Assembly: GCF_019649055.1 (NCBI RefSeq)
Contig: NW_026570257.1
Span: 124,001-188,000, forward strand
Length of the DNA stretch: 64,000 nt
Direction: 5' to 3'
Source: Paramacrobiotus metropolitanus
Lineage: Eukaryota; Tardigrada; Eutardigrada; Parachela; Macrobiotidae
Shown here: in pieces, positions 32,728 through 63,648 of the stretch
Layout of the letters: every line of letters starts with the position of its first letter
How positions within the stretch are numbered: position 1 is the first letter of the stretch
Notes under the pieces: model-generated
Told to the model about the DNA's origin: nothing
Databases searched by the model: none
The model's input: only the letters and a program-made list of their open reading frames with translations
Position numbers and translations under genes: made by a program

Positions 32728-32731
32728 GTTT

Positions 32732-32953
32732 AAAAAAAAGGGAACAGGTCCGGGATGAAAAGGAAAACGCTGGCAACTGAGCCTTATAAATTCGGGAGCA
32801 ACTAACGGGAACTGGTAGGGATGACCACCGAGATTGTCACAGCACGCAGCAGCATTTTTTTCCAAAAAAGGGAACAGGTTTGGGATAAAAAGGAAACACT
32901 GGCAAATGCATCCTTTAAATTCGGGATGAACTAAAGGGATTTGCTAGGGAAGA
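32732..32953. repeat. Diverged ~90-bp duplication at the cyclase 5' end
   Basis: About 32732-32822 and 32864-32953 share the same order of words (AAAAAAGGGAACAGG, GGGATGAAAAGG / GGGATAAAAAGG, CTGGCAA, AAATTCGGGA, CTAACGGGA / CTAAAGGGA). The first copy abuts the cyclase start codon on the minus strand, so it is probably 5' UTR or core promoter. The duplication may have copied promoter elements. Confidence 0.7.
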
Positions 32954-33974
32954 CCGTTCGCATTTCGCCCGGGGCGCCGAACAAGCATCCGCTTAATGAG
33001 GAGCCACAAGAGATGCAGTTTTGTTCACTGTACTGGTGTTTCATGCATCTGCATTCCGCCACAAAGCGGAATCGATAGGCGTGCTCGCGGGTATTAATTA
33101 GTCTGACTGGGCTACCCGGTAGCATCTTATTTTCCGTTCTCCAGTTCACCTGGAATGCGCCGCTTCGCAAACTCGGCCAGCTCCAGTTTCCAAGAAATGC
33201 CAATCACTTAAATTTCTAAACGACAACGTTTCCGATTTTGTTCGAATTTTAAAATAAATTCCCGGGCACGGATGACGCAGGTGGCAGAAACCCGGAAGGA
33301 CTTCAATGCAGCGGATGCGGAACGTTGTTTAGAGTTATCGGTAATTGTTTACGTGATATGCATCTCTTATATATACGTAATATGCACAATGATTTGTTAT
33401 TTCTTGGGTCAGTGCTTGACTGGATTTTTCGAGGTTATTGTATTGCATGCAGATCGAACTAAATATGGAACAAACAGAAGTGCCGAAAACAAACAGAATA
33501 ATATAACGAAATTATTGGAAAATCAAAAATTAAATTTCGGAATAACTGCACAAATTAATGATAATCATACAACTAATCACGAGAAAAAAGTAAAAAAATA
33601 TATTCGTACTCCAAAAATCGTACAGCACTAAAAATTTGTTTCAGGAAAACCGACGATATCGGCCCGACAAAATTAAATAAATAAAATAACAAACAAGAAT
33701 TTATTTTCGAATGATGACGCAAATAATTATCGCAAATTATTTGTACTGTAGTCACACTGAAAATGAAAAATATTCCCAGAAATGTTAATGAAGTAATTTC
33801 TTTTTTTAAAAACCGACAAACTATCGTGAGCGGAATTAGTAACCGTACGTGCGCTTTACTGAATTTGTTCTACAACCTTTAGTCACTTTTTTCAAACTCC
33901 CAGAAACTAACATGTAAAAAAACCGACCGACGATAAAAAAACAAATAAAACCCGAAAAATCTAACCGGCCCCAA
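32954..33974. other. Intergenic region between cyclase 5' end and FARSA 3' end
   Basis: The block at 32931-33203 is GC-richer than its surroundings and has a 90-codon minus-strand frame with several cysteines (AECRCMKH, NCISCGSS). I found no splice partner or family for it, so it is not called as a gene. The remainder is AT-rich and holds the presumed cyclase promoter and FARSA 3' flank. Confidence 0.4.
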
Positions 33975-36900
33975 TTATTTCTTCTTGTCCTCCATCTTCT
34001 CGGTGCGATCATCCAGGATGCACACGGGGTTGCTCTGCACCATCTGCAGGTCGACTTTATGGCCGACCAGATCGCGGATGTTGTCGATGCCGTACTTGAT
34101 CATGGTGGGCCGTTCCAGCGACAGTCCCCAGGCGATCACCGACACATTCTCCGGCAGCCCCATCGGCAGCAGCATCTCCGGCCGGAAGACACCCGAGTTG
34201 CCCACCTCCACCCACTTCGCCAGGCCTACAACACGCGCACACACCTGATTAAACGGTAATCAATGACAGACACTGACCTTTAGCGACAAGAAAATCTTTC
34301 TACAGTCGACACTGATAAAAACAGCCCGCACGACAGAAAGGAGCTGCTTTGTAAAACTGAAATTCACATTTTATTACAGAACACTCTTCAGCGTTTTTGG
34401 CGATTGCAATTTTGTATTTTCTGCTTTTAGGACTTTTTCAACTGCCCGTGCAAAAAAACATATACTGACATAAAAAAAATTTCTGCATACAAAATTTTCA
34501 CATAAGAAAACTCGCCCCAAACACGAACAAGCGCTACTGCACTGGACGAATGCAATCAGTTACAGAGAAAGCAAAACTGCGGAACATACGTATCTTACAG
34601 ATGCATGAAAAATCGATATCCAATGATTCGAATAAAAAAAATTCTAAAGAAATATCTGCATTAGGAAATTAATTTAGGAAAGTCGCATTTATCTATCATG
34701 TATCGGTTGCACCAAAGAGATACCACCCGAAATAGATTTATAGCCTCAACACTACGCCAACTATTCAGTGACACACCAAGAAAGACATTCAAAAAAATTA
34801 TAAATTTTTTAATAAATTAAACCAGATTTCCTAACAGTTAATACATTCAAGCATTTTTAACGTACCGGCATGGTAGCTGAAGATTTCCATGCTGGGCTCC
34901 GTGTAGGGATTGTATGCCGGTTTGAAGCGCAGCTGGGTGATGCCCAGTTTCTTGAAGAATTCACTGAGGACGCCCTTCAAATGCCCCAACGACAGATCGT
35001 AGTCCGCCACCACGCCCTCGATCTGGTGGAACTCGGCCAGATGCGTGGCGTCCAGATTCTCGTTGCGGAAGACCCGGTCGATGCTGAAGTATTTTGCTGG
35101 TTTGAAGCCCTAACAACAGCAAATTATTTGCCATAAACTTTCAGAACATAAAATTAATGCGCTAAAATGCACTGTTTCTCATCGCCCGACTTTTCTCAGT
35201 TAGAAATACATAAAATTTCGATTAACGGGCTTACTACTGCTATTCACAAACTCGTTTCCGAGGTAAATTCAAATAAAATCAATTTAAATAAAAAAATGAA
35301 ATTTGAACCATAAACAACTATGTCTTCCATTTTTTTCCCGTTCGCATTTAAACGTCGAAATTTGTCAGACAAATGCTTCCTGGGTCCTACCCTTACAATA
35401 GCTAATAACATAAGAATGTACTATTATTTGAAAACTGATTTGTTTTCATTTTAAATCCTGCGCGCCTTGCGAAAAACAGCTCGCTTTTCAAAATCGATAA
35501 TTTTTAATGCGATTACGGAACCAACTAGAAGATGAGGAAGTTAGAGCCTAAATTAGCGCACCTTGAGGGCCAGTCGGCGCAGCATGCGGGCGCTGACGGC
35601 GGTGGTGTGGGTGCGGAGGATGTTGCGCTTCGTCTCCGTGTCATCCCACTCGTAGTTGTAACCGGCTGAGTTGAAGGCGCCCTGCGAGTGCACCTGCTTC
35701 ACCAGGTCGACGTAGCGCTGACTGGGCAGCCGGATGGTTTCTTTGGGATCTGCAGAATAATTATTCTTCCGCTCATTCAACGGAACAGTACAGTAGCAAA
35801 CGATAAAATTCACCCGATTAAACACGTCGACGAGAGCACTCGACACGGATATCATATGCATACCGGCGTTAAAAAAAAGTCACATAATCATCAGAATAAA
35901 AATCAAAAAGTGAGTAACATCAAATCGCGTCACGTTAGCTGTAATACGAAAGTTACAGTATACCGGATGGCATAACATCTGACGTTTCCAGTATTAAGCC
36001 ATTACTCTACGTCAGCTGCTATTGCCAACTAGTATTCCATATTATACAGCCTACGAGCTGAATCTCAAAAATATCAATAAGAAAATATCTAGGCTTATTA
36101 CAGTGTAAGGAACGTTTATTTTGATTCAGTATAAGTATGCTACAAATATTATTGTTCAAAGAAACCTTTTGAAATTTAAAACATTTTTGAAATATTTTTA
36201 TTTAATACAACTACCGAATCTGGAATTATTCACTTGCCGTGGAGAATGCGACATTAGCGAAATGTTATTAAAAATTTAAAAAAAAACCGCCTCGGCTTGT
36301 GATAATAGCGAAACGCCAGCAAGAGACAAAAAAAAACAGAAAATAGTTGGTACCTGAAACAAAAAAGGTATCCTGGACATCGCGAGCCGGATGCTGCTGC
36401 GGCACGAAAAGGGCATCGAAATTCCAGAAAGAGTTCTCCACAAAATTATTCGTCGGCATTTCTTCGAAGCTAGAAAATTGGCACCGTTGTACAACCGAAA
36501 AAATTTTTGTTTAACGAATATTTTTATTCATTAAGTTTTTTAATTTCAGCAACCCAGTGAACCCGACGATGTTTCGTCATATGAGTACAGCTTATAATTA
36601 AATTCTGAAAAGGCCGAAAGGAGGACAAAAACTTTTAACATATGTTTAATTATTACAGCATTCGATATACGTTAAACGTATTATGTTAAACTTAAGAGCA
36701 TCATTCCGGGTTTTATAAGCATTCGTTAGGCCACTGCTCTACGACATACCCCATCTCCAAGAAAATCTGTCGGAACTCAGTGCGGACTTTGAGTAATGGA
36801 TGGAAATAGCCGGCCGACGGCGGCACGCCCAGCGCATCAAAATTGTACTCTTTAAAGCGCTTTTCCTTCCAGGCATTTCTGTAAATACAAAAAATCAGAA

Positions 36901-41869: not shown

Positions 41870-42373
41870 GAAATTCATTAAAAAATACATAAAAAATGGA
41901 AAAGGGATTTTGGTCGGAATTTTTTGGGTTTTATTGTGGTAGCTGTTGGTTTGGTCCTATCCAGAGAGTTTTTATCTTGTTTTTTGTTTAAGAATGTGTC
42001 TTGGGGTTTTAGTTATGTTTTTTCATCCGCTTTTCCGGTGGTTGATGCGATTTTGTGTCCACTGTTTTATTTTGAAGAGGTTTTATCTTTTGTTGTTTTT
42101 GTTTTTGGGCCGCGTCTATGGGCCGCGTCTATGGGCCGCTGCAGACGTCGTGTTTTTCGTATTTATACACGATATTAGCGTGGTACTGAAGAACGTGAAG
42201 ATGTGTGTTATTGAGAACGGGTAAACGGCGATAAAGCACGTACGGATCGCGTCAAGTGCCTTGATTTCTCGTCAACACTACCCGGTGCTGTCTATCGATT
42301 AATGCAGCAGCTTTAATTTTTAATCCAATGCTTTTTGAGTGAAAGAAATCAGGGACTGTATATACGGAAAAAA
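41870..42373. other. Intergenic MAX 3' flank / Ig-gene promoter
   Basis: T-rich stretch (41890-42180) with a tandem GGGCCGCGTCTATGGGCCGC duplication near 42108-42140. Open frames through it are hydrophobic only because of T-richness. I see no gene here. Confidence 0.45.
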
Positions 42374-43182
42374 ATGCAGTTAATTCGGTTTCTGTCGCTA
42401 TTTTTCGTAATGATCAGTTTCGGAATGGATTCGCACGCGGAAACCGTATTTCCAACGGTTATGTCAGCTGTGAACGGGATGGATGTGAGTTTGGTGTGTA
42501 AAGTGCCCGATCATATGGAGAAGCGTATGCTCATCTGGTTTAAGAACGGGACTTTCCCGATTTCCGTGGGAACAACACGGACCCATAGTGATCTGCGTTA
42601 CCGGTTGGTCGAGTCGATAACGGAACTGGTATTGAAGATAACAGCGGTTACCGTGAAGGACTCCGGAAATTACAGCTGTTACAGTTTAATGGACTCCAGA
42701 GATTTGGCGTTTTTCATGGTTACGGTCACCAGTCAGGATGGCTTATCTTGTGAGGATAGTGCCACGTGCGGTGATACTGGAATGGACGATGCAGCGGATG
42801 CAATTAATGTAAAGAAAGAAATTACACTCGCTTCGCTCGCTCGTTATGTGTGGTAGACTGCTCATTCCCAGCTTTATTTCAGCCCGTCTTCGCTTTAATG
42901 TTTAGTGCCAGATTTACAAAATGTATTAACGAACGGGCTTAACTGATTTTAGTGTCCTGTATCACTGAGATACCGTGACACAGTACACTTTGGTCTGTTT
43001 TGTAGTTGCTGAGTTCTAATGAAGCCTGGACCATAGGATACAATATGGCGGTGCGTTTTGCAGCCGTCGGCGTTGCTGTCGCCATCGTTACCCTACTGGT
43101 GATTCTCGCGGCCGTTTACTGCCGGAAAGAACGTGCCCAGAAAGCCCGTCCGTGTCCTCAAAACGAGGAAGGATCCGCCTGA
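42374..43182 (+). CDS. Single Ig-domain type I membrane protein
   Basis: Two exons, 42374-42808 and 43006-43182, join in phase 0 to give 203 residues. The start at 42374 is chosen over the in-frame ATG at 42335 because it begins a signal peptide (MQLIRFLSLFFVMISFG, ending near DSHA). One V-type Ig domain follows, with Cys in VSLVCKV, the core Trp in LIWFKNG and the closing DSGNYSCYS. A Cys-containing acidic linker (GLSCEDSATCGDTGMDD) precedes the splice. The second exon supplies one TM helix (VAVAIVTLLVILAAVYC) and a short basic tail without signalling motifs. Unspliced reading ends 16 codons after the donor and would give a secreted form. A likely polyadenylation signal AATAAA is at 43407. 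Cell-surface recognition or adhesion is plausible. I do not recognise the orthologue. Confidence 0.75.
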
Positions 43183-44292: not shown

Positions 44293-45509
44293 ATGGCAGA
44301 GAACAACCGATATGGAAGCTCTGCGTCCACAGTTCCGTACCAGGTGAAGCAGCTGGCCAGAATGGTGGTGCACGGATTCTACGGCCAAGAGCACGGCGTA
44401 ATTGCGGATATTCTCTGCAGCCTGTCGGTGGTTGAAGAAGACGTCCTGTGCGATCTTAGCCGATCTAGTCAAGCTGGACAAGAAGCAGTTACGACAGTTG
44501 CTGGCTGTTCTGAAGGCTGATCAGATTGTTAAAACGAAGATGGGTGTGGAAACGGGCGAGGACGGGAAGAGTTTGCGTTGTACTTACTATTTCATCGACT
44601 ATCCTTCCTTGCTCAATATGGTGAAGTACAAACTGGAGCTGATCCGCAAGAAAGTGGAGACGCAAGAGCGTAATACAGCCAACCGGGAATCCTTTAAATG
44701 TAAAGACTGTGAGAAGACTTTCTCGGATTTGCATCAGGTCGGTACATTATGATGGTCTTTACGCAAATATTTATAAGTAACTAATAAACAGTAATAAATA
44801 AGACTAGTATTAATAGTAAGTTTTAAAACAGACTAATAAATAGTAAATAATACCAATAGGTCGTAAGATTTTGTCTGCCTCTGAAGTCTGAAATAGTGCT
44901 GTAAGCGCCTTTGAAAATTTATGGGGAGTTATTTTTGATTTGCAGGTTTTGGATCCCTTTTCAATGAGCTTCAAATGCACTTTCTGTGGTGGAGAAGTGG
45001 ATGAAGAGATGGTTCCCGCACAAGAATCCCGAGTTGTGATGATGACTCATTTCAACGAGTCCACTAGTGCCTTATTTGATCTCATACACGAAATCGACAG
45101 CCTCAATCTCACCCCTGCCGAACTACAAGCGGACATGGCGCAGTCGATGGTCAGTGCGGCCAAGGCTGCAGCCAAACCCGGGGCGGCCGGCTCGTGGAGC
45201 GACGATACCAAGAGCACTGAGTACAATTACGTTCCTACCCAGGATATCACCGTTACGATCGGAGAGACCGAGAGCAAGGGCCAGAAGGCCAAAGAACGTC
45301 CGGTATGGCTGACGGAGAGCACCGTCTTCGCCGGAGAGGTGGCTACCTCGGAGATAGATGTCAAAGACCAACCGGAAGCGATTATGAAATATGACGAAGT
45401 CATGTTAGCGCTGATGCGGCACGAATCCCACGTGTACGAGGAAGATAAGCGACCCGAGCCGGCATCGGAAGACGAGTTGGAGGATGTGCAAGATATAGGC
45501 TTCAAGTGA
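44293..45509 (+). CDS. GTF2E1: Transcription initiation factor IIE subunit alpha, frame broken by a 10-bp duplication
   Basis: TFIIE alpha recruits TFIIH to the RNA polymerase II preinitiation complex. Exons 44293-44737 and 44946-45509 join in phase 0. Landmarks: winged helix (LARMVVHGFYGQEHGVIADIL, KKQLRQLLAVLKADQIV), YYFIDY, VVKYKLEL-like VKYKLELIRKK, then a zinc ribbon whose first knuckle FKCKDC and second FKCTFC straddle the intron. The C-terminal half has KERPVWLTEST and an acidic tail, as in the family. A 10-bp near-repeat (CGATCTTAGC followed by CGATCTAGTC, 44451-44470) shifts the frame after EEDVLCDL and brings a stop at 44518. With one unit absent the frame would run through as 332 residues. 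No intron can absorb the 10 bp in phase. AATAAA lies at 45654. Confidence 0.9.
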
Positions 45510-47672: not shown

Positions 47673-48335
47673 TTCCGATAACGGAGACCTGATTTATACA
47701 ATGAACCCCTAATGAGGAACCGCTGGAAACCACGCATCTTTAAAACCAGAGATTAGACCCATTTCCGGTTATTGAAGAGAACAGTATTTGTTAGGGGAGG
47801 CAACATTCAGACTATTTCCCTGGAGCATTGGATTCTGCCATGACTTCAACATTTTCTGTAAACTTTCCTTTGCATCAGCTTATATTCCACTGCAGCTATC
47901 GTACTTACAATTAATTATAAGCATTATAATTAAGTGCTGCATGGCCACAGAACTAAGCGCTATACGTACAGGACGTACAGAACTATGTGCTATAGTAAGT
48001 CGACGCAGTTGCCTTGGTTTGTACACTAGAAGTCGGAAGAGGATCGAACCGGTCAAAGCTGAATAACGATGGGAGTGACCAACTTAAGCTCCTCTCTGCA
48101 ACTTGCGTTATGTGCATGCCATGGTTACAGCCTAATACGAGTACAAACTGCGCATCCGGTAACAAAGAAGGTACGGTAGCAAGCGCTAACTGGGCGGTAA
48201 AGTCAATTTTATTAAATATGAATTTCTTTAAAGGCTCTAAAATCTAGTGTCCTATTATAAAGAAACTGTTTGTTGTCTGCCTCAGCTACTAAACGTATAA
48301 GCCGGTTTCCTTTGCCATCACTTCAAGAAGACACG
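47673..48335. other. 5' flank of the F-box gene
   Basis: No independent gene is seen. A pyrimidine-rich stretch ending TGCCTCAG at 48284 could be a splice acceptor for an upstream non-coding or short coding exon of the F-box gene. Confidence 0.35.
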
Positions 48336-50799
48336 ATGACATCGTTGTACTATCGCAAGCTGTTTACAGGCGCACGCGAAATCAATTACGGGAACACAGT
48401 ACTGGTGCAGCGCGATAACGGCCAATGGTGGCTGGGATACGTACAAGACATTGACGGCGATAACTACTTCATTGACTTCGATGCCAGCACAATCAACGCC
48501 CAGTGGATCCACACTAGACATCTCTGGCCGCATCCCTTCCTCTCCTCAATGGCATCATATGAAGGCGAGTCTATCCAGGTGGCGTTAAGGCATTCCCCAG
48601 GAGCACCCATGGTTTTCCGCCCGGGCTTTGTTATCGATGAGCGGACCATTGGCCTTTTTATCTTCGTAAGTGTGGACGAGCAAAATCCTGGCGAAAACTC
48701 GACGCACATAGTACCGGCAGCGCACTGCGTCGAAAATCTACCGCCGTCTGACGATGGTGGTAGTTTCTTTGCGCGATCTACCGGTTACCTGTATAAGAAA
48801 TATGTCGTCGGGTTTCGTGAAGCGCATTTGTTGTCGGACGTGGATTTCCTGCCGTCGTTCCTAGCCCATACGTGCGACTTGTCGCTGCAACGCGGCTGTG
48901 ATGAGTGTAATACGAATTGCCGCTTTGAAAGAACGGTTTTTATGGAGAGAAGCGATTTTCTGTGGCGTGGTTTACGCCCGAAGAAATATTCGTTTGATGC
49001 GGGTTGCCGGGTGTTTGTGCGACTGGGATTCGATACGGTCACTTTCGTTTGTGCTGAAGTCTACGGTAGTGCAGCTGGTCACAACATGTTCTGGACTGAA
49101 AATTCCTTGAAAAAAGCATGTGAAAACTATCTCATTGAGAAACAACGGGGAGAATCTGTTAACATGGACACGACTCCGTGGAGCGCGCTGCAGCATGGTC
49201 AGTGTTTCAGTGCTATAGGTGGCTGACGATGTAATGATTTCCTATCGCTGCACTGCATCAGTCTGTTTTGATTCTATGATTGCATTAGATGTTACTTAGT
49301 TCCTTACTCAACATTGTTTACTTCGTTAAATATCGAACTAAACGTGTTGATCCTATTATATTGCTTCACATCTAGAATGCGTCCTTATAGCAACTTGAAC
49401 TCCGTAACGTTGAACTCAAACAAAATACTTCGCACTTGTAGAAATATAAGAATATAATGTTTTGCTAAGCTAAATATTCTGCAGATGCTGAGGATTTGTC
49501 CATCAACGAGCTACCACACCCGATCGTAACATGCATCCTGCTTTACTTGGATGTGGATTCCCAAGCGCAAGCTAGCCGGTACGTTTCAGTTGGCTCTTTT
49601 TCGTATTAATCACATCTTTTTAGGTTTGTCTAATTTGGTTGCGCCCGCATTCTAATCGGCTGCTCTGCATTGATTGTTCTAATCACCGAATACTACTAAT
49701 ACACTACAGCGAATTTGATGGTATTTTATTTTCCATTAATCAGCGTATGCGTTCTATGGAGAATGATCTCCAGGAAATACGTGACCAACCGGAACATCCT
49801 CTTCGATTTATGCGCGCACTGCGATAGGCAGCCGCGAGACGACAACTCGTCCGGGAAATATAATGAATATCTCACATACAAACTGGTCACCCTGCTGGAC
49901 AGCCTGGCTCCTGGACTAACACAGACGCTGGCGCTGAAGGAAGGCGAGAACCAGTGTCATGCTGACGCCGATCTCCAAGGACGAATGCACATAACCAAAT
50001 CCGTGCTCGCCACTAAAAATATCCGTCTGCCTTTGATTATCGTGAAGAACGGCCACGATTCCCATGGTTCGCCAGTGCCTTTCTTATGCATTTCCCGTAA
50101 TCGCGACAGCGGTATCTTGGAGTGGGAATCGCTGTCCGAGATGCAGTCCGTTTGTGAGGAACTGGTGCTGATCGACTACCATGCGGGAGAAGCAATCATG
50201 GGAACTGTGTGTGGGAGATTTTATATCTCGATACAGCATCAGCTTTGCCGAAGTCGGAGACAAAGTTTATGCGAAGCCTTGTGGCGGCCCGTTGTGATAT
50301 CATTATTCCGCTGATGCGCTTTCGCTTCACGGAGACGGCCGCTGAGCAGTGTCGAATGTTTTTGGCAGCAGCAGATGCCAACTGTCCGGCCGTTAGCCCG
50401 CGCGCACTTGAAAAGGTCATGGCGATGCATTCACGTTGGGTGCAGACGTTGACGTATCCCATTAAGTGGACCGGTATTCGTGTTTTCTTACGGCTGTAAG
50501 TGTCGTCTCACTGGTAGCAGCGAGTCGGTAGTGCCCGGCTTTATTTATTTCAAAGGGATTTTATTTGCATCTTAGCAAGATTTTTCTTTTGTTAGAACCA
50601 ACAAACTTTATCCCGGTAAAATGATTTACAAATTATTAGCTGTTCATTTTGCCTTATTTTCTCTAAACTGAGCAGATTCAACAGTCTTCTGCCGGATGAT
50701 AATCCACAACGCTGGGATACTATGGACCTGCGAGAGCTGGATATTTCTACTTTGACCAGTATAACATTTGTTGCCCTTGATGGATACTTCAAAAGCTGA
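48336..50799 (+). CDS. F-box protein with N-terminal Tudor/SH3-like segment; frame broken at a TG repeat
   Basis: Exons 48336-49218, 49485-49578, 49744-50495 and 50676-50799 join in consistent phase. Residues about 10-60 (NTVLVQRDNGQWWLGYVQDI, DNYFIDFDAS, QWIH, LWPHPF) look like a small barrel of Tudor/SH3/chromo-barrel type. The F-box (about 300-335) is split by an intron: INELPHPIVTCILLYLDVDS then ASRVCVLWRMI. F-box proteins are SCF ubiquitin-ligase adaptors. The long C-terminal part has no repeat (WD, LRR, Kelch) I can recognise. At 50206-50213 a TG run has four units; three would keep the frame through VWEILYLDTASALP and on to a 616-residue end, while as read the frame stops at 50314. An upstream in-frame ATG at 48270 is possible, but the region before 48336 looks like UTR. 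I know no orthologue by name. Confidence 0.7.
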
Positions 50800-51355: not shown

Positions 51356-52954
51356 TCACCAAGGTCCTGATGATCGGCCGGTTCCGAACAGGAACTTGAG
51401 AATAAGCACACAAACGACTAGAAAAAGTAATACCATTGCTATTACACGTTTGGCTTTTTGGCGCAAGGAACAAGGAGGAGACGGAGTCGTCAAGCCCAGT
51501 GTTTGCGGTCTCACTTCCGTGTTCTTGCGCAGCATTTCCATTACAGCCACAACGCTGATCCTGGCCTTACTGTCGTAACACAAACAACGGCGAGCACATT
51601 CTCCCAACGGAAACGGTGCCGCAAAGGGCACTTCGGGCATATAACCAGCCGCGACCATGACCGCATAGTGGCGCTCCTCAACATTATCTCCCCGCTTCCG
51701 ATCGTGCGCTAGCTCTCCGTTGCACAGCCATACATGATCGGTGCCCATGACGCAGTTGATCATGTCCAGCATAATACATCCCAGACTCCAGATATCGGTT
51801 TTTCTGCAGATTTTGGCGTTGAAAATACCTGCCGTCGAGCAGCCGAGCATCTCTGGTGACATGTAACGGAAACTGCCCTGAGGGTAATTAGCATCAAGAT
51901 CCGCTGTAGCGATGAGGTTGTTCTTTTTCTGGACAAAATCCTCAAGGCCACCGATTACAAGTACCTCGTGGCTGTTGGCATCATCTTCGATGGTGCGGAC
52001 GAATATGTTACATGGATTTAGATTACCGTGAATAATGCCATTGGAATGCAGGAACCCCAAACCTTCGGAAATCTGAAACATGTAGTCCACAGCGGTTTTC
52101 AGGTCAAAGGGCATCTGTACCAGTCGGGTACCGTTGGCGGTGTTCCACATTTGATTCTGGTGGCAAAATCTCTGCAAGCGATGAGCCATGTTTCCTTCTA
52201 AAACATGGTAAGCAAAATTAGGATTTGCTGCACACCAGTATGCTGAAACGTAGCCAACGACAAACGACCTTGCCGCTTGCACATCAGTTGTTACTTTGTT
52301 ATACTATCACCATACTTTTCTAGTCAACCTGCGATGTACAATACTCGCATTTTAAAAGGTAAAACAGAAGTAGTCTATCAGATTCTATCATGATGCTTTT
52401 AGCTGCGGTCGGTCTGGCTTGCCTTAAACGCATCTTGGCTGCGTAAATTTGCTGTCATAAAAGTGATTTTACTGGGAGAGTAGTTACTGTAATTGTTGTT
52501 CATTCAGTGTCCTGGTTTATGTACTCTGGGAGGACAAGTCCATGATTTCCGGTAAAACAGCTACGGCCAAATATTACAGATCATCTTATCATTTAGAATA
52601 CTTACTATTATAGTAATCCATAAGCACATACACGAAAAAAGTGTCGCCGGATGTCGTGAAATCGATCATAAACTGGTGGTACTCGGTGATGTGATCGTGG
52701 CTAATCCCCAGAAGTCGCTGAAATCGACTGCGCATTCTGTTCCTGGCCGATTCGTCCGCGTAAGTGTCCTTTCTAGGTTGAACAACTTTGACGGCCACAT
52801 CGCCGTCTCCTGTGTAATTTCCGTAATCCGTGATGGTCGCTTTGCATACATAACCAAAGCTCCCTTGTCCGATCAGCTGGCCGGGATCATGGATATCGTA
52901 CAGATATCGGCAAGTCTTTCCGTAGACTTCCGGCTCAAACGTAATGGCAACCAT
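51356..52954 (-). CDS. K1: membrane-anchored pseudokinase
   Basis: Exons 52606-52954 and 51356-52197 join as A|AA to give 396 residues. The N-lobe has IGQGSFGYV (ATP loop) and VAVKV with the ATP-contacting Lys. The C-lobe has LHSNGIIHGNLNPCNIF, VLVIGGLEDFV, GSFRYMSPEM and RKTDIWSLGCIMLDMINC. Relative to active kinases HRD is HGN and DFG is GLE, so both the catalytic base and the metal-binding Asp are gone; its siblings K2 and K3 keep HGDLKPGN and DLDD. After the kinase domain comes a basic stretch (RQKAKR) and a single C-terminal helix (VIAMVLLFLVVCVLILKFLF), so the fold should face the cytosol as a tail-anchored protein. It may be a scaffold or regulator of the sibling kinases. The start Met at 52954 is supported by the similar N-termini of K2 and K3. 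Confidence 0.82.
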
Positions 52955-55796
52955 TTGAACGGATAAATGGAAAACTATGTGAGAGTGAGACGATCACGAA
53001 CGAATACGGACTATTGAGTCAGTGCTGCAGGAAGCATTATCACAAAAGCCGCAGAAACTGCGATTTATTCAAAAACACCTTTATTAAAGTACTGTAATTT
53101 GGTCAAGGTTGACATATCGGACTATTTGTTAATAAAGCATTGCGATTATTCGTACTGCTAGTAAAGTTTCCACAAAATAATCTTCTGTTCTGCTGTCAAG
53201 TGACTCATACACAAGGTGGCATCAGCTGATAATATAATTATGAACATATTAACGGTAAAGTACGCGGAAAACTGAAATGTTCACTCACGATTTCAGGAAA
53301 TTGCAATACAACTGATCCCTGATCCCCAATACACGCGTATACAATAACATTGTGCGGAATAAAATTACGGTCCTCGGCGGCTTTCCGGTAGCGGATTGTT
53401 GAACAATTCCCCTGTTTGGAAATGGGTAACGTTTCACTGGGAATTTTATGTACAATATAGCAGTGGTGGGCAGCTGCTGCAGCATACCGTAACTTGCAGA
53501 TCGTAAATGTGGTTATACCGTACTAACTGCCGGCAACATGGATGCGCAATTGATCACTGAGCCCAAATCAGGCAGCTATCATGCAGCTATCATGCTGTCA
53601 AACTCTCCCGAACGCAGCAACCATTAAACACGCAACGGTGAGTGCGCTAGCTACGAGTACAGTATTGTAACAACTTTGCATACTTGCACATACAATACAC
53701 ATGTACTAACACATGTACATGTACATGTACTTGTACTCTCAGCAGTGCTCGTACAATATTGTAATGCACTAATTATTTTTATTCTTCATGCAGGCTAAAA
53801 AGCCGCGTAAAGCAGCACTTTATGCAGCAAAAGTGCATGCAGATCTTAAACTACAGTAAAATACACCAGTACATTGATGTACATGCAAAAGTAAAATATC
53901 TATACATTCTTACAATCTTACCGTCGCAAGGCGTAATTCCGTGGGTTATTATGGAAAAATCAACGCGTGGTCGGTTTAAGTTCAGCATAGTCTTGAAATG
54001 AGTCTTATTTTCCATAGGTATGTATTTACGCTGAATTTTAATTGTCTCTAGAACTGCCAGGTTTGAAAACTCTCTTGGTCGTTTTAAGTATAGGAAAGCC
54101 TGAATCTCCATGGATTAATAAGATTATAGAATACGTGGTCATCTAGAAATTTCGTAAGGACCATGGCAAGAAGTGAGCGACAAAAAAATTTACGGCACCT
54201 TACATTTAACATACTTAGAATGTCAACGACCGTGGGAAACGGGTGAGATTTTTATCTTAAGTTATCTTCCTGAGATTTCGGGACGATTCCAGACAAAGTA
54301 TTATTTTACTTAAGTGCTTACAGTACGTACTCGAGAAGCCTGACAACAACATTGCGAAGAACTCTGTAATTTAATTAAGTATGACATTTAACGTAAGGAC
54401 AACTTTAGCCATGGATCTGGGACAATATGCATTAATATATATAGTTTGTACTGTACGTCGAGTGTACGCTATTTGATTTTTGCGATAGGATAATAATTAG
54501 TGAGTGACTGTCCGTGAGCAAAATCTGTAGGTGAGTGAGTCACCGAGCTACCACGACTCATGAACAAAATCTCTAGATGAGGGAGGGAATTAGCTACCAC
54601 CACTGTCCTGTGAGCAAAATCTGTAGGTGAGTGAGTGGCCGAGCTACCACCACTGTCCGCTACCACGACTACTGTCGTTAGCACTACTGTCGTATCTCGT
54701 TACAGTCCATAAATTCAAGCCTAACCTTTCCAATACACATTTGCCGAGCGCGGAGCGCGAGGCTTACCTTGTAATTAATGTGATTACAGTATCATAATAT
54801 GATACTGAACCATATTATGGCAATTTTGAACCATAACACGTATGTATTATGTAGTTTGACATGCACTGTTGCCACAACCATAACTATTATTAGTATCGTG
54901 TGGAAGAATGGTTGTCTTTAATTACAAGGCAGTTAAACCAAAACAACAACACAGAAACAACACGACACACAGTAGGTATGCCCGTTGCCGGGAATCAGGT
55001 CAGCAATCTCGTGAATAGACTTGTACGTCAACGAATAATGGTCATAATTCGCTTTAGGCTCGGCTTATTAATTTGTATTCTGTATTTGGGCTTGCTCAGA
55101 GTGAACCTAGTGTAGCACCCGAAGAAAAGTTATCAAAAATGTTTGTACGAGTACAAACAACCAGTATGCATGGTTGGCTAAGGGCTGGTGCTTTCACAAA
55201 CTTTCACAAATAACGAGTTTTGCTCACTGTGGTTAAATTACATTAACTGTTTGTTAAATTACATTAAATTACATTATGTAATTAATTACATTAATTACAG
55301 TTCACTGTGGTTAGTTTACATTAAATTTTGTGATTAAACAATATTACCATATGAAGGACGTTGCTATCGTTCATGACAAAGCGGCATGTAACGGAATTCG
55401 GCCGCAAATGTTCACCATTACTAGTATATTTTCGGTTGGAGGACGATGGAATTCATCAAGCAGTACGTGCAATATGTTGGCCGATTTCTAGATAACTATG
55501 CTTACTGGCGGTTTGTGGCTAGTCCGTGTATTCCTCATGATCAGTTGTACTTTGACCAGTTTTTTGCAAACTGAAACTTCTTTACCAGTTCACCAGTCTG
55601 GCTTACCGCGAATAACAAGCTCATACACTACGGAATATCATGAAAAGAAGATAAATTATTGGCAAAAAGTTTGCTAGCACTATGCAGTCGCAAACTTTGT
55701 AACAAGCCTTTTATAGCCTCTTCAGGTCAACCCTGCTACGTTAAATTTAAAGCGATAATTTACGTCTACTTCCCATAGCCTTTTTGAGATTTCTAA
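52955..55796. other. Divergent intergenic region between K1 and K2
   Basis: Contains both promoters, an ACATGTAC-type microsatellite at about 53690-53750, the short tandem repeat at 54515-54700 and AT-rich repetition at 55250-55330 (ATTACATTAA words). No other gene is visible. Confidence 0.5.
54515..54700. repeat. ~48-bp tandem repeat, three diverged units
   Basis: GTGAGCAAAATCTGTAGGTG begins units at about 54515 and 54611, with a diverged unit between (ATGAACAAAATCTCTAGATG). Each ends in GCTACCAC(C/G)ACT. Shorter CTACCACGACTACTGTCG words trail off to 54700. Confidence 0.8.
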
Positions 55797-57659
55797 ATGG
55801 ACGCTATTGCAATCGAGCCAGAAATCTATGGAAAAACCTGTCGATACCTGTACGATATGCATGATCCGCGTCAGCGTATCGGACAGGGCGGCTTTGGCTC
55901 CGTGTGCAAAGCGACTATCACGGATTACGGCAATTATGTCGGGGACGGTGTATTGGCCGTCAAGGTTATCTACCCCAGAAGGGACGCCTATGCGGACGAA
56001 GTGGCCAAAAACAAAATGCGCAGTCGATTTCAAAAGCTGCTGGAGATCAGCAACGAGCACATCGCCACGTATCAACAGGTTATTATCGATTTCACAACAT
56101 TCGGCGACACCTTTACCGTGAAATTGCTCATGGATTTCTATATAGCGGTGAGCATTTTGAATGATTTATCTTTGACTATGAATTTGGTACTCTGAATCAT
56201 GATCTGGTTCTTCAGATCTGTTTCTGTTGAACGTAGTCAAAACTTGGGTATGCTCCGTTGTTCACTGAAAAACGTTCACCTCATTAGCGCTTTAAATTTC
56301 TTGATCGATCGGGAGGACAATAATGGTATTAGGTAGTCAATAAATACCGTACGCATAATGCACGGTAATTGCTCTCAAAATAAACACGAGTACATATGAG
56401 CAAGTGAGTTCTGAGCAGAGTAAGTTGGAAAATATGTACAGTACGTTGGTCACCAATGCTGCGAAGGAAGAGATTACCGGAACTGAGATAACACCGGATC
56501 ACATATCCGTTTAGTCTAGAATAGAGACTAAAGTAGATGGTTTATCATTTTCGTATACATAAATACCAAAGAGTCAGAAAGGAAGCTAGATTAGGACACA
56601 GCTGCATAAATAGTCTCAGCAGTGCAGTTGAGCTGCCCTTAGCAAATCTGCAGCTGTACTGAAGTATGCCACGTTCATCAAAAACTGGTTAGACCATGCA
56701 GTGACAACATGGTAAACTTGTTAGCCACTACTTCCGCTTCAGTAAAAACACCCAAACTCCGAAGAGTTGCTTTAGATCTTTTAGCTTAACGAACTGTATT
56801 TATATTTTCATTTCGTAAAACCTAACCCGTTTACTGTATTTCAGAAGGCGACTTGGCTCATCGCTTGCAAACATTGCGCCACGAAAATCAGCTGTGGCAC
56901 ACCGGCACCCGACTGGTACCGATGCCCTTTGACCTGAAAACTGCGGCGGACTACGTATTTCAGATTAGCGAAGGCCTAGCGTTTCTGCATTCCATCGGCA
57001 TTATTCACGGTGATCTGAAGCCTGGAAATATATTTATCCGGACAGTAGCACAAAATACTACTAGCCGCGAAGTACTGGTCATCGGCGACCTGGATGACTT
57101 TGTCCAGATGAAGGCTAACATCACCTCAACAGGCGACTTTAGTGCTCATCACACTCCGGGCAGTCTCCGTTGCATGTCACCCGAACTGCACCGCCGATCG
57201 GCCACGGAAGTTTTCAACGATAAAACGGGACGGAAAACCGATATCTGGAGTCTGGGATGCATTATCCTGGAGATGATTAATTGCATTATGGGCACGAATC
57301 ACTTATGGTTGTGCAATAAAGCCCATCCGCCTGACCGGAAGCGGGGTGATAATATTGATGAGCGCCCTTATGCAGTCCTGATGTCGAAAGGCTATCTGCC
57401 CGAAGTACCCTTTGCTGCACCGTCCCCATTGGCGGAGTGTGCTCGCCGCTGTCTATGTGAGGACAGCAGGGTTAGGATCAGCGCTGCAGACGTGGTTCAG
57501 ATGCTGCGCAACGGCCAGGAAGAGATCGCGCAAGCTACGGAGCTAGCGGGAACGCCTTCCGGGCATCGCATAGCCGGTCGTATAATGGGAGCGATACTGA
57601 TGTTTCTGTTAGTATCGGCTCTGGTTATTATGATGTGTGTAGGGCCTGGCCGATTCTAG
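55797..57659 (+). CDS. K2: membrane-anchored divergent kinase, exons out of phase at the splice
   Basis: Exon 1 (55797-56147) has IGQGGFGSV and LAVKV. Exon 2 (56845-57659) has LHSIGIIHGDLKPGNIF, VLVIGDLDDFV, MSPEL, RKTDIWSLGCIILEMINC and the C-terminal helix MGAILMFLLVSALVIMMCV. The catalytic Asp of HGDLKPGN is kept; DFG is DLD with its Asp present. It is close to K1 over its whole length. In K1 and K3 the intron interrupts a codon after its first base, and exon 2 here starts with the matching two bases (AA GGC GAC). The only plausible donor, GCG|GTGAGC, leaves exon 1 in phase 0, so the join is off by one base. Either K2 is newly damaged, or it uses an unusual donor, or the sequence has an error. 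Unspliced, exon 1 would end at 56195 as a 132-residue N-lobe fragment. Confidence 0.7.
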
Positions 57660-59840
57660 AAGTGGGAATCTTGGTGGTAGCGAAGTAAATACGCAACATT
57701 GACAATTGATTACTACAAGATATAGCCTATATATCCTCAGGGTGTTTTCGCATTTTAATCGCTGTAATCTGAATTTCAGAAGCACAAGTTGCCCGCTTTT
57801 GTCTAAGTCAAAATACTTCTTTTTAGTGCTACAGCGCAGCCGTGTTTTGCATTAATTTATTCAGACAAAATGAATTAGGGGAAGGGTGGCCGAGCTCTGT
57901 AATCTACGAGTACGTATACTCGTACCGCTCAGTAGCCATCTGAATCCCCCGCCGTGAATTTTGTTGCTCCATTTTTTCTTCAGCGTTTTCCAACAAGAAC
58001 AATAGTCCCGAGTGGAAAAGTAAGATCCGAAAGGTTCTTGCTATCTATCTGATGCTTGCTGTTGCTATTTTGTAGCAGAAGACATTAATGCATGAGTGTG
58101 AACTCGTATTGTACGAGTACGTTGCACGATAACGTGTGTAGAGTGCGGGTCACGTTATGCTGCGGAAGTCTAGAATAGCTGGTATTCGGAATTCGGACAG
58201 TTTTTGGCAAATGCAGCGTCAGTGATTAAGGTCCGAGTAATTAAGTTTTTTTGTTGCTTGGCTTATTTTTCCTGATTTCCCGGTGGGGAGAAGTCTCTGA
58301 GAATGTGAACGTTTTCGCAGTAGCACATCCTAAGGTAGGTGTATAGTTTCACCACTGATTGTCGTTAACCAGCGACCTGTAGCTTGATTAATAATATTGT
58401 TTTACGTTCACGTCCAACGTCGCGACAAAGCTACAATAATGTGTTGTTGGGTATTTTAGCGGTGCATATAGTGCCATATACCTTTTGCTGAACTAGCAAG
58501 CAAGCAGTAAGAAAAGTAGTGACTACAGTAAGGGGCGATCCAAAAATTACATACGCAGCGAACCAGGAAGAGAGGAACAAAACGTCATGACCTGGGTGGA
58601 GTATCAGGATGGCGTCCTCATGTGGATTATCGAGTGTATAGTGCACACTGGTGATTAGTTAAGCTGTACTTACGTAACACGTTACTTTATAATCGCATTA
58701 GTTTTATACGTGAATGTTCTCACTTCTACTAAGGTAGTACTTGATAGCTTTTTGCAAAACAATCGGCCAACACATGATGCCAGTCGTATTTTCGTTTCAG
58801 TATGCATGTTTGGATGCTGCGTACTGCCTGTATGGTAGGTATACAGGGTGCTTAAAAAATCTCGGAGTTCTGTATTATAAATAACTTAATGATGCAGGTT
58901 ACAATGTACAATACACTTTGTACTGCACGCACGAACAAATTAATAGATCGGTGTACTCCGGAGTACCTTTCTTTAATGCCCGCCGTATGGTATATAAAAT
59001 TACTGCATAAATTTAATTAAAATTTTCTATACAAATTATTCCTGCCACATGAATTGAATGACCGGGCTCGGACACTGGAAAATAAGTTGCTGAGCTAACG
59101 AAATAAAGTTAACTGCCAAATTTTTACTGATGAAATTATTTTATCATTATCAGAATAAATTGGTACTGTTTTTTGTAGGAACTCATGCAGAGACGCTGCG
59201 CACTACTGCCCAATCTGCAAAAGCAACCTTGGAAAATACAAGCGACTGTGATTTTTATTGTGGGTTCTTGCCCATTTTGTTACGGAAATGGCCAGAATGG
59301 CCGTTGTTACAATGTAATGATTGCAGTCCCAGTGAGTTGATAACACTAACTGAGGTCATTTACAAAAGAGCATTATTCTAATCACTATATACGAACCAAT
59401 AACCAAACTACTGTATGTTGGTACTTCACTTGCGATTACGGTACAAATACATACTGTACTCTTGTTTAAAAGACATTTCCAAACTGTAAACTGAAACTTC
59501 CGTATTACTTAACACGACGTTTTAAACATTTTTCAAGTCACTCAAAAATCTGGCTGTTTAAATTATAACCACAGTAGCCATTGACGGCTGCAGCTATCAG
59601 CCATTATTTATTACCATAAAAACGACCACAAATAATATCGTCGTTGTTTGAGCAATCGACCACCGGCCGGTAAAAATCTTGATGAATTTTCACGGCATGT
59701 TTGATGCAGAATTGTCGATGAACTTCCTGTTGGTCGCAGTTGTTGCAGTTCCCGACTTATGCTCAACGAATTCAACAAAAGAGTAAATGAACATAAATAA
59801 AAATCATAAGGATCGTTTTGGGTTTTCTAGATCATCGCCC
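57660..59840. other. Tail-to-tail spacer between K2 and K3
   Basis: About 2.2 kb with no recognisable exon. An ORF at 59130-59381 has no family features. A tRNA-like word GGTGGCCGAGC at 57886 was examined and rejected. Confidence 0.45.
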
Positions 59841-62800
59841 CTATTCGTTAAAATACTTCCAAAGCTTGTAACAGCTTGCAATAAAAGTTACCAAGCCCGC
59901 CACAGCTGCTAGTACTTGATAGCACGGACCTCTCCGGCGTCTCCGCTCTTCCGATTTAACCGCTTTAGATCGGGGGGAGCGCAACAATGGAAGTAGTTCT
60001 TCAGCGGTGGCCCTCGTTTCGCTGTCATACCACAGACAACGGCGAATGGCTTCGGCGATCCCGGCTGGAGTGTGCTTCGGTTCCAGCAGAACAAACCCCG
60101 CCTCGACCAGCCTGATGAAACTTTCAGCATCGACATTATCGCCCCTCTTCTTGTTGCCTTTGTCAACATCAAACATCCACAGTTCCTCCATCATGCAGTT
60201 AACCATTTCCAGCATAATACATCCCAGACTCCAGATATCCGTCTTCATGCCCACTTCCGTGGGAGGATCTCGCAGGTACTTCCCGCACATTTCCGGCGAC
60301 ATGTAACGGAAGCTACCGTGCAGGTGCGCGGTGCCTGCGCTGCTATGTTCGATTTGGATGAAATCATCCAGATCACCGATTACCAGTACTTCCCTAACCG
60401 CCTCGTTACCCTGTATGAGGCGGATAAATATGTTTCCGGGCTTGAGGTCGCCATGAACGATGTTGTTTTGATGCAGAAAGCCCAGTCCGTTCGCGATCTG
60501 TGACATGCATGCCGCGGCTGTTTCCACGTCTAACTGCATTAACGAAGAAGCGTCAAAATGTTCATGTGGTGGATTGCGTCGCAGCTGATTATGTTTTTGG
60601 AACTCCGCTAAAAGGCCAGCCAAGTCTCCACCTGTTGCAAAGGCAAAGGGAAGCAATAAGCGACAAGGAAAAGGCGCTTGTACAGCATGCATAACAACAC
60701 TAATTCCATGAGATAATTTTTGAGACGAGGTACATAGTATTAAAGCGCTATCTGTTACGTATGTGACATGTTTCGCTTATTTTTGACCGGAGCGAAGCGA
60801 AGGTCTTCCTAATTCAGCTCCAGTGCTTAGCTTCACTTGTGTCCGTTACGGAAGTCTAGCTATGACGTCATCCTGGATAAGTCAGATGACGTCACGGCTC
60901 TATACAGTAGTTTTGCAGTGCTCACTTGTGTCCGTTACGGAAGTCTAGCTATGACGTCATCCTGGATAAGTCAGATGACGTCACGGCTCTGTACAGTACT
61001 TTTGCAGTGCTTAACTTGTGTCCGTTACGAAAGTCCCAAATATGACTTTACCGCGGACTAGCCCGATAACGCCATGAGACTGTAGAACAGTTTTGCACTG
61101 CTTATCTTGTGTCTGTTGGGGAAGCACCGTTGATGGTAACGTGGTGTTTCCTGTATGCTTAAAACGCTAATGAAGAACACAGGGCACTTCAAATAGCAAC
61201 CTTTCCCAATGTCGCATTCGAATAAAACGTGCCTAACTTATAGAAGAAGCTCGACAAGTAAGGGCACCCTGGCTTAGATAATGAAGACCCGTGCCAACCC
61301 TGGCTTAGGCAGTTGTAAGAAGCAACTGGGGGTGATCACCAATTTTAACAGTGCCGGCAATAATTCAAAAAGGTCACCCAGAGCTTGGTTAAAATCGACT
61401 GGCAAATAGACACTCCATTGTTTGCGTAAAATTCCGTTGTTTGTTACAACATTTATTTAGAGAAGCGGGCTTATGATACCTAAACGGTTTCTAAACTAAT
61501 TACCTTCAACTCTGGCAACAACTAAAAAACGAATTTTTAATGGGAGGAGGTGCTTTAGGGACCCTGGGTTGAACTGCTTCAACCCGGCAACGTCTGCTAG
61601 GTGGAAAAACCACCAGTACTAGTTCGCCAGTTTTACAACACCAGGACTATTGTTATTGCCTGGGTCACATATGCGTTAGATTAGATAGAGCAAAGATAGT
61701 GTATTTTAGTTGCATACTGTATTTTAGTACCTTAAAAAACCTACATGGCTTAAAACCCACTGAAAAATAACGTAAAAGTACTACGAAGTGTATCTAAATC
61801 GGCTCTTATGGTAATAATTTGGGATTAAATTGGTGATAACTCCATATGAGTATCTCACAATTTCAGTATTACACAAAGTCTGCAGCTCTTTTGAAAAAAC
61901 TGTGAATTTACACTGAAAAAAACACTGAAAAACAGAAAACACTCAAAAAATAACGCAAAGTTCTACGAAGTGTATCTAAATCGGCTGTTATGGTAAAATT
62001 TGGGATTAAATTGGTGATAACTTCATATGAGTATCTCACAATTTCAGTATCCCACAAAAGTCTGCAGCTCTTCTGTAAAAAAACTGTGAATTTTCAAAAA
62101 CAGCTGGTGGAAATTCCACCGCTTGGGCATTGTCGTAGGACAGTAACATGCTGCCTGAACAGGCACAATAACCAGAGCCGCACACTTCATATGATTCAGC
62201 CGTTGCGTACTAAGAGTAGCCAAACCATAACACTGTCAGCAAACTGATCAAAATATCAAACAAATAAGGACATCTCAGTGCTTTTATAATAGCATAAATG
62301 CTAATAAAACATTTTTCTTATCATATCACAATATTTTCTTCGACTGCAATAGGAAAAAGAACAATAGAGACGTTGTGGATCGAAGCAGCCAACAATAAAT
62401 ATGGCTGGCTATGATCAGTGTTATGCTCATGAAAACTGGCGCAGCCCACCATGACCCTGTTGCATACTGACCGGAATTCAAACATTTTTGAGTATAAATT
62501 CAACCATGAACCTTTTCATGATGAATTAAATTGCACAAGCTAACTATTATAAAGTGTAAGCAGCTACCACAGCCAGGTTGATTCGAGTAGATCAAGTAGC
62601 CACAATGTTGTGTACAACGGGGTTTGTGTGGTGTCGCACCGGCAACCACCGTGCCCACTGCCCACACCGCCCGTATTGTATATCGTTAATGCCCAAGCGG
62701 TGCCACCTACCCACCTACCCACCTACCCTTCAAATTCTAAACTACTGCAGCAAAAATTTTGGAAAAACATAGTTCAGGGTTATTTATTGTTATTCTGGTA

Positions 62801-63648
62801 TGAATTTCAACTTCGACAAAAATTCCTTGATACCTCGGGCATTGCCGGGTTAAGCAAATTTGCCGTAGTTTTAATTTCGCTGTAATCACGGTTTAGTGTC
62901 AGAAATAACTGAAAATACTCATAAAAGATACTGGACATACGGTAATAACTTAAAATGATCAATTTGTATTTGTTGACGGGTGATATGTGGCAAATTCTGG
63001 GAACAACTGCTCTAAGCTTGCTTAACTACAAAGTGAGAAAACTAAAACTGAAAGAAGAAAGAAAGAACAGAAATGACAGAAGAACGGTGGCAAAAAGTTT
63101 AGTCTGGTTTTCAGTTTTTCCTACATGTTGTCCGAGAATGATTTACAAAATTTCAATGAATTTTTTGTCGGCGGGCCATGCAACAAAGCTTCTTGACCAA
63201 GCTGTGAAATCGCTTCGCTCCGGTCTGCTAAGGCACGCCAACGTGCATTTTTCTAGTAATAATAGCGAGTAATACACAATGACAAATGTACACTTAAGTT
63301 GACCTGACTGGCGTAATAGTCCATCATCAGATGCACCGTACAATCCGGACCGGGTTTGGTGAGGTCAATAGAAATCTGATGATAAGCGGCAATGTGGTCG
63401 TGATGGATGTTGACTAATGTCTCATAACGACGGACCAGTTTTTGCCTGGACTGTTCAGCCGTAAATATATTCTTCTTGAGATGAGCCACTTTAACGGTTA
63501 CAGTCGGCGCACCCACATAGTCTCCATACTCGGTAATTGTCGCAGCGTAAACGTAACCGAAAGAACCCTGAGCGATATGTTCACCCTCTGCAATTTGATA
63601 CCGACAGGTTTTTCCATATGATACTGGCTCGATAGGAATTACTTCCAT
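59841..63648 (-). CDS. K3: membrane-anchored divergent protein kinase
   Basis: Exons 63309-63648 and 59841-60631 join as A|GT (Ser) to give 376 residues. The ATG at 63648 (MEVIPIEPVSYGKTCRY) aligns with the starts of K1 and K2. The ATP loop is IAQGSFGYV (first Gly replaced by Ala), VTVKV carries the Lys, and RRYETL offers a Glu where K1 and K2 have Gln in the presumed helix C. The C-lobe has LHQNNIVHGDLKPGNIF, VLVIGDLDDFI, GSFRYMSPEM and MKTDIWSLGCIMLEMVNC; the catalytic and metal Asp are present, so activity is possible. A basic RRRR stretch and a C-terminal helix (VLAAVAGLVTFIASC) end in KLWKYFNE. The 2.7-kb intron is far longer than in K1 (0.4 kb) or K2 (0.7 kb) because it contains two repeat blocks, one rich in TGACGTCA sites. 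Confidence 0.85.
60834..61110. repeat. ~89-bp tandem repeat carrying paired CRE-like TGACGTCA sites
   Basis: CACTTGTGTCCGTTACGGAAG starts units at 60834 and 60923, a diverged unit at about 61013 and a remnant at about 61103. The first two units each contain ATGACGTCAT and ATGACGTCAC about 20 bp apart, perfect matches to the CREB/ATF palindrome; the third has lost both. It lies in the K3 intron near exon 2. The open plus-strand frame at 60837-61061 is a repeat artefact. Confidence 0.85.
61760..62095. repeat. ~180-bp duplication in the K3 intron
   Basis: Two copies (about 61760-61910 and 61945-62095) share GAAGTGTATCTAAATCGGCT, TTTGGGATTAAATTGGTGAT, CATATGAGTATCTCACAATT and TCTGCAGCTCTT with few differences. 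Non-coding. Confidence 0.85.

Follow-up and report, generated by a model that had tools for sequence, protein, structure and literature searches.

Three neighboring kinase-fold paralogs with hydrophobic C-terminal stretches in a tardigrade: a candidate enzyme, a predicted pseudokinase, and a probably disrupted copy

Receptor tyrosine kinases have an extracellular domain, a transmembrane (TM) helix placed before the kinase domain, and a catalytic loop of the HRDLAARN type. Tail-anchored proteins lack an N-terminal signal and have a single TM helix that lies no more than about 30 residues from the C-terminus. To our knowledge, few tail-anchored kinases are known, VRK2A and PKMYT1 being proteins in which a kinase fold carries a C-terminal membrane anchor. 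An earlier description of the locus analyzed here, made from the DNA letters only (the sequence-only reading), had stated that a soluble kinase fold combined with such an anchor matches no kinase family known to its author; with these two examples the combination is not without precedent. VRK2A is placed at the NE and peripheral ER in PMC6550788. Kinase-fold proteins are considered pseudokinases by the bioinformatic definition when at least 1 of the beta3 Lys, the HRD Asp, and the DFG Asp is missing, and HGx instead of HRD has been noted in ROP kinases (PMC4718504). Kinase families of a single animal lineage have already been reported: of 365 domain-congruent clusters exclusive to 2 tardigrade genomes, 27 are kinase clusters, and in a cluster with a receptor ligand binding domain 276 of 284 members come from tardigrades (PMC5531438). 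Lineage-only kinase families are therefore to be expected in tardigrades.

A cluster of three kinase-fold paralogs

The window, the whole stretch of 64,000 nucleotides of the Paramacrobiotus metropolitanus genome that was analyzed, contains 3 kinase-fold genes, which we delimited by stop-to-stop reading and exon joining:

51356-52954, minus strand: K1, 396 aa
55797-57659, plus strand: K2, 387 aa as a read-through model
59841-63648, minus strand: K3, 376 aa

The 3 proteins match the Pfam Pkinase domain (PF00069) with E-values of 4.1e-24 (K1), 1.6e-24 (K2, read-through model), and 1.1e-29 (K3), and their whole-domain scores of 85.8, 87.2 (read-through), and 104.1 bits, respectively, lie above the cut-off of 31.7. 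They are 41-62% identical, with 240/386 identical residues between K1 and K2, 153/371 between K1 and K3, and 151/367 between K2 and K3, which makes K1 and K2 the closer pair. These 2 genes are placed head to head and show up in the DNA as inverted repeats (74-78% complementary). A tblastn search of the window with K1-K3 (E up to 1) returned the 3 loci and one chance match (E 0.32), and thus revealed neither a further copy nor a fragment. The proposed three-gene cluster of paralogs with orientations -, +, - is thus confirmed at its place, as is a conserved strand, the EVLVIG motif being invariant in the 3 proteins. The two-exon layout proposed for the trio is confirmed, and the common intron position applies to K1 and K3, in which the donor lies at offset 16 from the conserved ATGGA[TC] codons, in the same codon and phase (phase 1), and the acceptors join in frame; the phase of the K2 intron differs (see below). 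The sequence-only reading had also seen an unusually long insert between the ATP loop and the VAVK Lys. Measured between the Gly-loop Val and the beta3 Lys, this spacing is 19 residues in K1, K2, and K3 and also in the aligned row of KIT, and therefore the insert is not unusual.

The coding history of the closer pair was analyzed by comparing substitutions between K1 and K2. The dN/dS ratio (NG86) is 0.26 (bootstrap 0.19-0.35); the kinase core taken separately gives 0.22 and the linker plus tail 0.54, and dS amounts to 0.89. In a neutral simulation with 0.10 substitutions per site (600 runs), the frame stayed free of stops in 1.3% of the runs for K1 and 2.8% for K2. Compared with the observed dS of 0.89, this indicates that K1 and K2 stayed protein-coding during most of the time since they separated.

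Neighbors of the trio read as animal genes (TFIIE-alpha, an Ig domain, and a receptor guanylyl cyclase):

44402-44749, plus strand: TFIIE alpha subunit exon (Pfam TFIIE_alpha, E 3.4e-14)
42317-42853: Ig domain (Pfam)
21773-33000, minus strand: exons of a receptor-type guanylyl cyclase with kinase-homology and cyclase motifs
24172-24543 and 24911-25252, minus strand: kinase-homology pieces of the guanylyl cyclase (Pfam PK_Tyr_Ser-Thr)
23219-23473 and 21773-21961, minus strand: cyclase motifs of the guanylyl cyclase (by eye)

An open frame at 44892-45509 (plus strand) has no Pfam match and, judged by eye, may be a further TFIIE alpha exon. Two open frames on the plus strand, 48261-49226 (321 codons) and 49700-50314 (204 codons), are located about 1-3 kb beyond the 3' end of K1; neither has a Pfam match at E 0.001, and they are possible orphan genes. 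The open frame at 33975-34259 (minus strand) resembles by eye the C-terminal part of phenylalanyl-tRNA synthetase alpha. At 3513-4109 (minus strand), overlapping open frames repeat a motif (around KYSTYRCGDLGDP), which probably reflects a tandem repeat in the DNA. The kinase-homology domain of the guanylyl cyclase was considered as the origin of the trio and rejected, since tblastn with K1-K3 (E up to 1) gave nothing there.

Catalytic motifs and coding state of the three genes

The exons of K1 and K3, which splice at the same codon position, distribute the kinase motifs as follows:

52606-52954, minus strand: K1 exon 1, with the start Met, Gly loop GQGSFGYV, beta3 Lys (VAVK), and alphaC; donor AATA/GTAAGT, phase 1
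52198-52605, minus strand: K1 intron, 408 bases, GT-AG
51356-52197, minus strand: K1 exon 2, with the catalytic loop HGNLNPCN, GLE at the DFG position, SPE, the alphaF Asp, and the stop
63309-63648, minus strand: K3 exon 1; donor GCCA/GTCAGG, weak by eye, phase 1, at the codon position used in K1
60632-63308, minus strand: K3 intron, 2677 bases, with 2 small tandem duplications inside
59841-60631, minus strand: K3 exon 2, with HGDLKPGN, DLD, SPE, and an RRRRR stretch, followed by the C-terminal hydrophobic stretch

The tandem duplications of the K3 intron are located at 60833-61010 (an 89-base unit, 98% alike) and at 61758-62058 (a spacing of about 181 bases, 82-95% alike).

The beta3 Lys, the +5 Asn, SPE, the alphaF Asp, and the alphaI Arg are common to K1, K2, and K3, and DLKPGN and DIWSLG are signatures of the Ser/Thr type. 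The Gly loop reads GQGSFGYV in K1, GQGGFGSV in K2, and AQGSFGYV in K3, which begins with Ala. HGD for HRD and DLD for DFG had been attributed to all 3 proteins; this is correct for K2 and K3, while K1 has HGN and GLE. The motif table thus lists for K1 an Asn at the HRD Asp, an Asn at the +2 Lys, and a Gly at the DFG Asp, with the beta3 Lys kept. This places K1 within the bioinformatic definition of a pseudokinase and outside the sequence test for a catalytically competent kinase (beta3 Lys, HRD Asp, and DFG Asp), which K2 and K3 pass, the coding frame of K2 being in doubt. With its catalytic Asp, catalytic-loop Lys, and DFG Asp all replaced, K1 is a predicted pseudokinase, encoded by a gene under coding constraint. 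Among the 146 core columns in which K2 equals K3, K1 has 26 private changes, 3 of which fall in the 10 essential columns. Compared with random placement of the 26 private changes, this is no excess at the catalytic site (P 0.25), and suggests that no special constraint is left on the essential columns of K1; it is not evidence of selection for loss. In the equivalent comparison for K2, 145 columns contain 25 private changes, and none of the 7 essential columns is affected.

K2 and K3 keep the beta3 Lys, the catalytic Asp, the +2 Lys, the +5 Asn, the DFG Asp, the APE Glu, the alphaF Asp, and the alphaI Arg. The alphaC Glu is the salt-bridge partner of the beta3 Lys in kinases. The column that aligns to this Glu in KIT is occupied by Arg in the 3 proteins, in a register that rests on one alignment (KIT). 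All 3 have in addition HG instead of HR, a change found in 19 of about 50 human pseudokinases versus 8 of about 500 active kinases (PMC4718504). Together with DLD, these features imply that K3 too may be inactive, and that the activity of both K2 and K3 may be weak or absent. The entire family could then consist of pseudokinases acting as membrane-tethered, nucleotide-binding or purely structural scaffolds, of which K1 would have gone furthest. HG for HR and Arg at the alphaC position in all 3, DLD or GLE in place of DFG, and the enrichment of the HRD Arg-to-Gly change in human pseudokinases (PMC4718504) all speak for this explanation, but the essential residues that K2 and K3 retain, from the beta3 Lys through the catalytic Asp, +2 Lys, and +5 Asn to the DFG Asp, speak against it, and we consider it unlikely.

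In K2, the open frames and the splice signals are in conflict:

55797-56145, plus strand: K2 exon 1, counted to the codon position of the K1 and K3 donors
56148, plus strand: K2 GT donor, 2 bases past the donor position common to K1 and K3
56845-57659, plus strand: K2 exon 2, with HGDLKPGN, DLD, and SPE; open, and out of frame if the 56148 donor is joined to the acceptor before 56845

The K2 donor has offset 18 and phase 0, versus offset 16 and phase 1 in K1 and K3. When this donor is spliced to the homologous acceptor, the reading frame shifts, and 30 altered codons are followed by a stop. Between codon 84 and the point where the exon 1 frame closes there are 5 GT dinucleotides, four of them in phase 0, one in phase 2, and none in phase 1. 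Downstream of ATGGAT, GC dinucleotides occur in phase 0 at 56145 and in phase 1 at 56152, the latter in a context (gtga/GCATTT) that is poor by eye. Three AG acceptors (56845, 56848, and 56892) are present in the interval that begins with the open exon 2 frame and reaches 60 bases into the exon. The first 2 require phase 1, and the one at 56892 (first base, inside exon 2) suits a phase-0 donor with the loss of 15 codons after the hinge. K2 would thus have 2 in-frame ways out, the phase-1 GC at 56152 and the acceptor at 56892, both weak candidates. Apart from this conflict, K2 exon 2 is open throughout, with gaps of 6, 9, and 12 bases relative to K1, which indicates recent damage, an error in the assembly, or an unusual splice. 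K2 is therefore probably a copy disrupted at the splice junction, recently or only in the assembly. The 3 kinases announced by the sequence-only reading are in this analysis reduced to K3 as the best candidate enzyme of the trio, next to the predicted pseudokinase K1 and the probably disrupted K2.

All 3 proteins would be active kinases if K1 worked by a non-standard mechanism, as CASK does, and K2 were spliced non-canonically. The coding constraint on K1 and K2 and the 2 in-frame ways out in K2 are consistent with this, as is the activity of CASK in spite of its missing DFG (metal-binding) Asp (PMC4718504). However, K1 has lost the catalytic Asp, the +2 Lys, and the DFG Asp together, more than CASK lacks in that account, and K2 offers no GT in phase 1 between codon 84 and the close of its exon 1 frame, a poor GC context, and an alternative acceptor that removes 15 codons. 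We thus regard activity of the whole trio as very improbable.

The C-terminal hydrophobic stretch and the proposed membrane anchor

A hydrophobic stretch is found near the C-terminus of the 3 proteins, encoded in each case by exon 2:

K1, exon 2: residues 368-386
K2, exon 2: residues 363-381 of the read-through model
K3, exon 2: residues 353-371

The strongest 19-residue Kyte-Doolittle window is C-terminal in all of them, with values of 3.19 (K1), 2.76 (K2), and 1.74 (K3), and the maximum reached before the last 45 residues is 1.18, 1.33, and 1.16, respectively. The C-terminal value was matched within the last 45 residues by none of 5000 shuffled proteins for K1 and for K2, and by 89 of 5000 for K3. 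The C-terminal TM helix that had been assigned to the trio therefore stands as a hydrophobic stretch in the 3 proteins, and K3 is a weak case for an anchor. The stretch is followed by 5-10 residues in each protein, and none of the four best hydrophobic windows is N-terminal. Linker plus tail are identical at 19/53 positions between K1 and K2, versus 221/333 in the core, and tail hydrophobicity has been kept nonetheless. An AlphaFold model of K3 exon 2 (262 residues, 3-row alignment) has a mean pLDDT of 41.2, with confidence limited to a C-terminal helix that spans residues 235-261 of the 262 (pLDDT 80 in block 241-250 and 89 in block 251-260).

According to the positive-inside rule, the positively charged flank of a TM helix is on the cytosolic side. 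The 20 residues that precede the stretch carry a net charge of +4 in K1, 0 in K2, and +6 in K3, and the charge after it is +1, +1, and 0, respectively. The positive flanks of K1 and K3 would thus place the kinase domain in the cytosol. A cytosol-facing tail anchor fits K1 well, K2 through its hydrophobicity, and K3 through its charge.

The explanation that we favor, tentatively and with the case for and against it almost in balance, is that the trio are local duplicates of a tail-anchored cytosolic kinase fold in which K3 is a candidate enzyme, K1 a pseudokinase, and K2 probably disabled. The sequence itself shows the paralogy, the motif states, the coding constraint, the hydrophobic tails, and the clash of frames when homologous splice sites are joined. 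One animal gene with a product of the Ser/Thr-type protein-kinase fold would have been duplicated locally to give K1, K2, and K3. This product would face the cytosol and be fixed to a membrane by the C-terminal TM helix, and K3 would phosphorylate substrates close to that membrane. K1, which has kept the Gly loop, the beta3 Lys, and the fold but neither the catalytic Asp nor the catalytic-loop Lys nor the metal-binding Asp, would most likely act without catalysis on the same membrane as a scaffold, decoy, or allosteric partner. K2 would probably have been disabled by a frame shift of 2 bases where its exons meet, either recently or in the assembly only. Membrane insertion and its side, K3 activity, K1 inactivity, and any partnership between K1 and K3 are what we infer beyond the sequence. 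So understood, the trio would show in one place how genes are born, lose catalytic residues, and decay, a convenient system for studying how pseudokinases arise, and an interesting yet ordinary case of a diverging gene family that leaves the established picture unchanged.

Family placement and comparison with known systems

The sequence-only reading had called the trio a divergent, perhaps lineage-specific family that matches no kinase family known to its author, and our attempts at placement failed as well, the leading matches varying with the query. In searches of solved structures, the best E-values and the leaders among the best 60 matches were 3.3e-10 for K3 (ASK1, NEK2, and KIT; best 60 of 1047), 5.1e-10 for K2 (PERK, a MAP2K-like protein, and CDKL3, also CDK2; best 60 of 704), 3.6e-11 for K1 (a MAP2K-like protein and PERK; best 60 of 617), and 2.8e-13 for a profile of the trio (JNK1 and KIT; best 60 of 1376). 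PERK ranked high for both K1 and K2 among the matches listed. Top scores were 42-53 bits; the KIT rows (with K3) and the PERK rows span most of the domain, and many others cover part of it. NCBIfam returned only kinase models, far under their cut-offs (best for K3, 56.9 bits versus 450). No relatives were confirmed among 54 pattern matches in viral contigs and 94 in prokaryote genomes, scans that do not bear on animals. A description of the family was not found in the titles and abstract starts of the matches listed from the open-licence literature, nor did we find an open-licence paper on a tail-anchored transmembrane protein kinase in tardigrades. The trio could still be an already named kinase family that has diverged too far to be recognized, which would be compatible with the favored explanation because it concerns kinship and not mechanism. 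The weak matches to many families, the best with an E-value of 2.8e-13 (profile), and the extent of the KIT and PERK rows are in line with this; a top row that changes with the query, at 42-53 bits and with many partial rows (best 60 each), is not, and we find a named family possible but somewhat unlikely. No named kinase family is supported for the trio, which is most likely a diverged family of kinase-fold proteins that face the cytosol and have a tail anchor.

Among the best listed matches of K3 and of the profile, KIT (a class III receptor tyrosine kinase) resembles the trio in its loop-to-Lys spacing of 19. Unlike KIT, the trio has a catalytic loop and alphaF of the Ser/Thr type (DLKPGN and DIWSLG) and no possible extracellular part before the kinase. 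The Pkinase match begins at residue 21-26 and the hydrophobic stretch is downstream of the kinase domain, and with a loop that reads HGDLKPGN or HGNLNPCN, this led us to reject a receptor tyrosine kinase. ASK1 (MAP3K5), NEK2, PERK, and JNK1 share kinase-domain motif similarity with the trio, but reach at best 42-53 bits with ranks that vary between paralogs, and the ASK1 row has the standard HRD and DFG, unlike the trio. VRK2A is like the trio in having a kinase fold, one TM segment near the C-terminus, and a kinase that is cytosolic or nucleoplasmic. However, no VRK was present among the best 60 rows for any of the four queries, and HGD/HGN and DLD/GLE are features of the trio.

For K1, the closest parallels are STRAD, MLKL, and the ROP-type pseudokinases, in which the HRD and DFG aspartates have been lost and the fold kept, a comparison of motif states (PMC4718504); the HGN of K1 also corresponds to the HGx of the ROP kinases. 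By analogy with STRAD, K3 and K1 might form an enzyme/pseudokinase pair that arose by local duplication and is tethered through tail anchors to one internal membrane, K1 acting allosterically on K3, with no named group to which the pair would belong; we judge this improbable. K1 differs from STRAD, MLKL, and the ROP-type pseudokinases in keeping both the Gly loop and the beta3 Lys and in having a C-terminal hydrophobic stretch.
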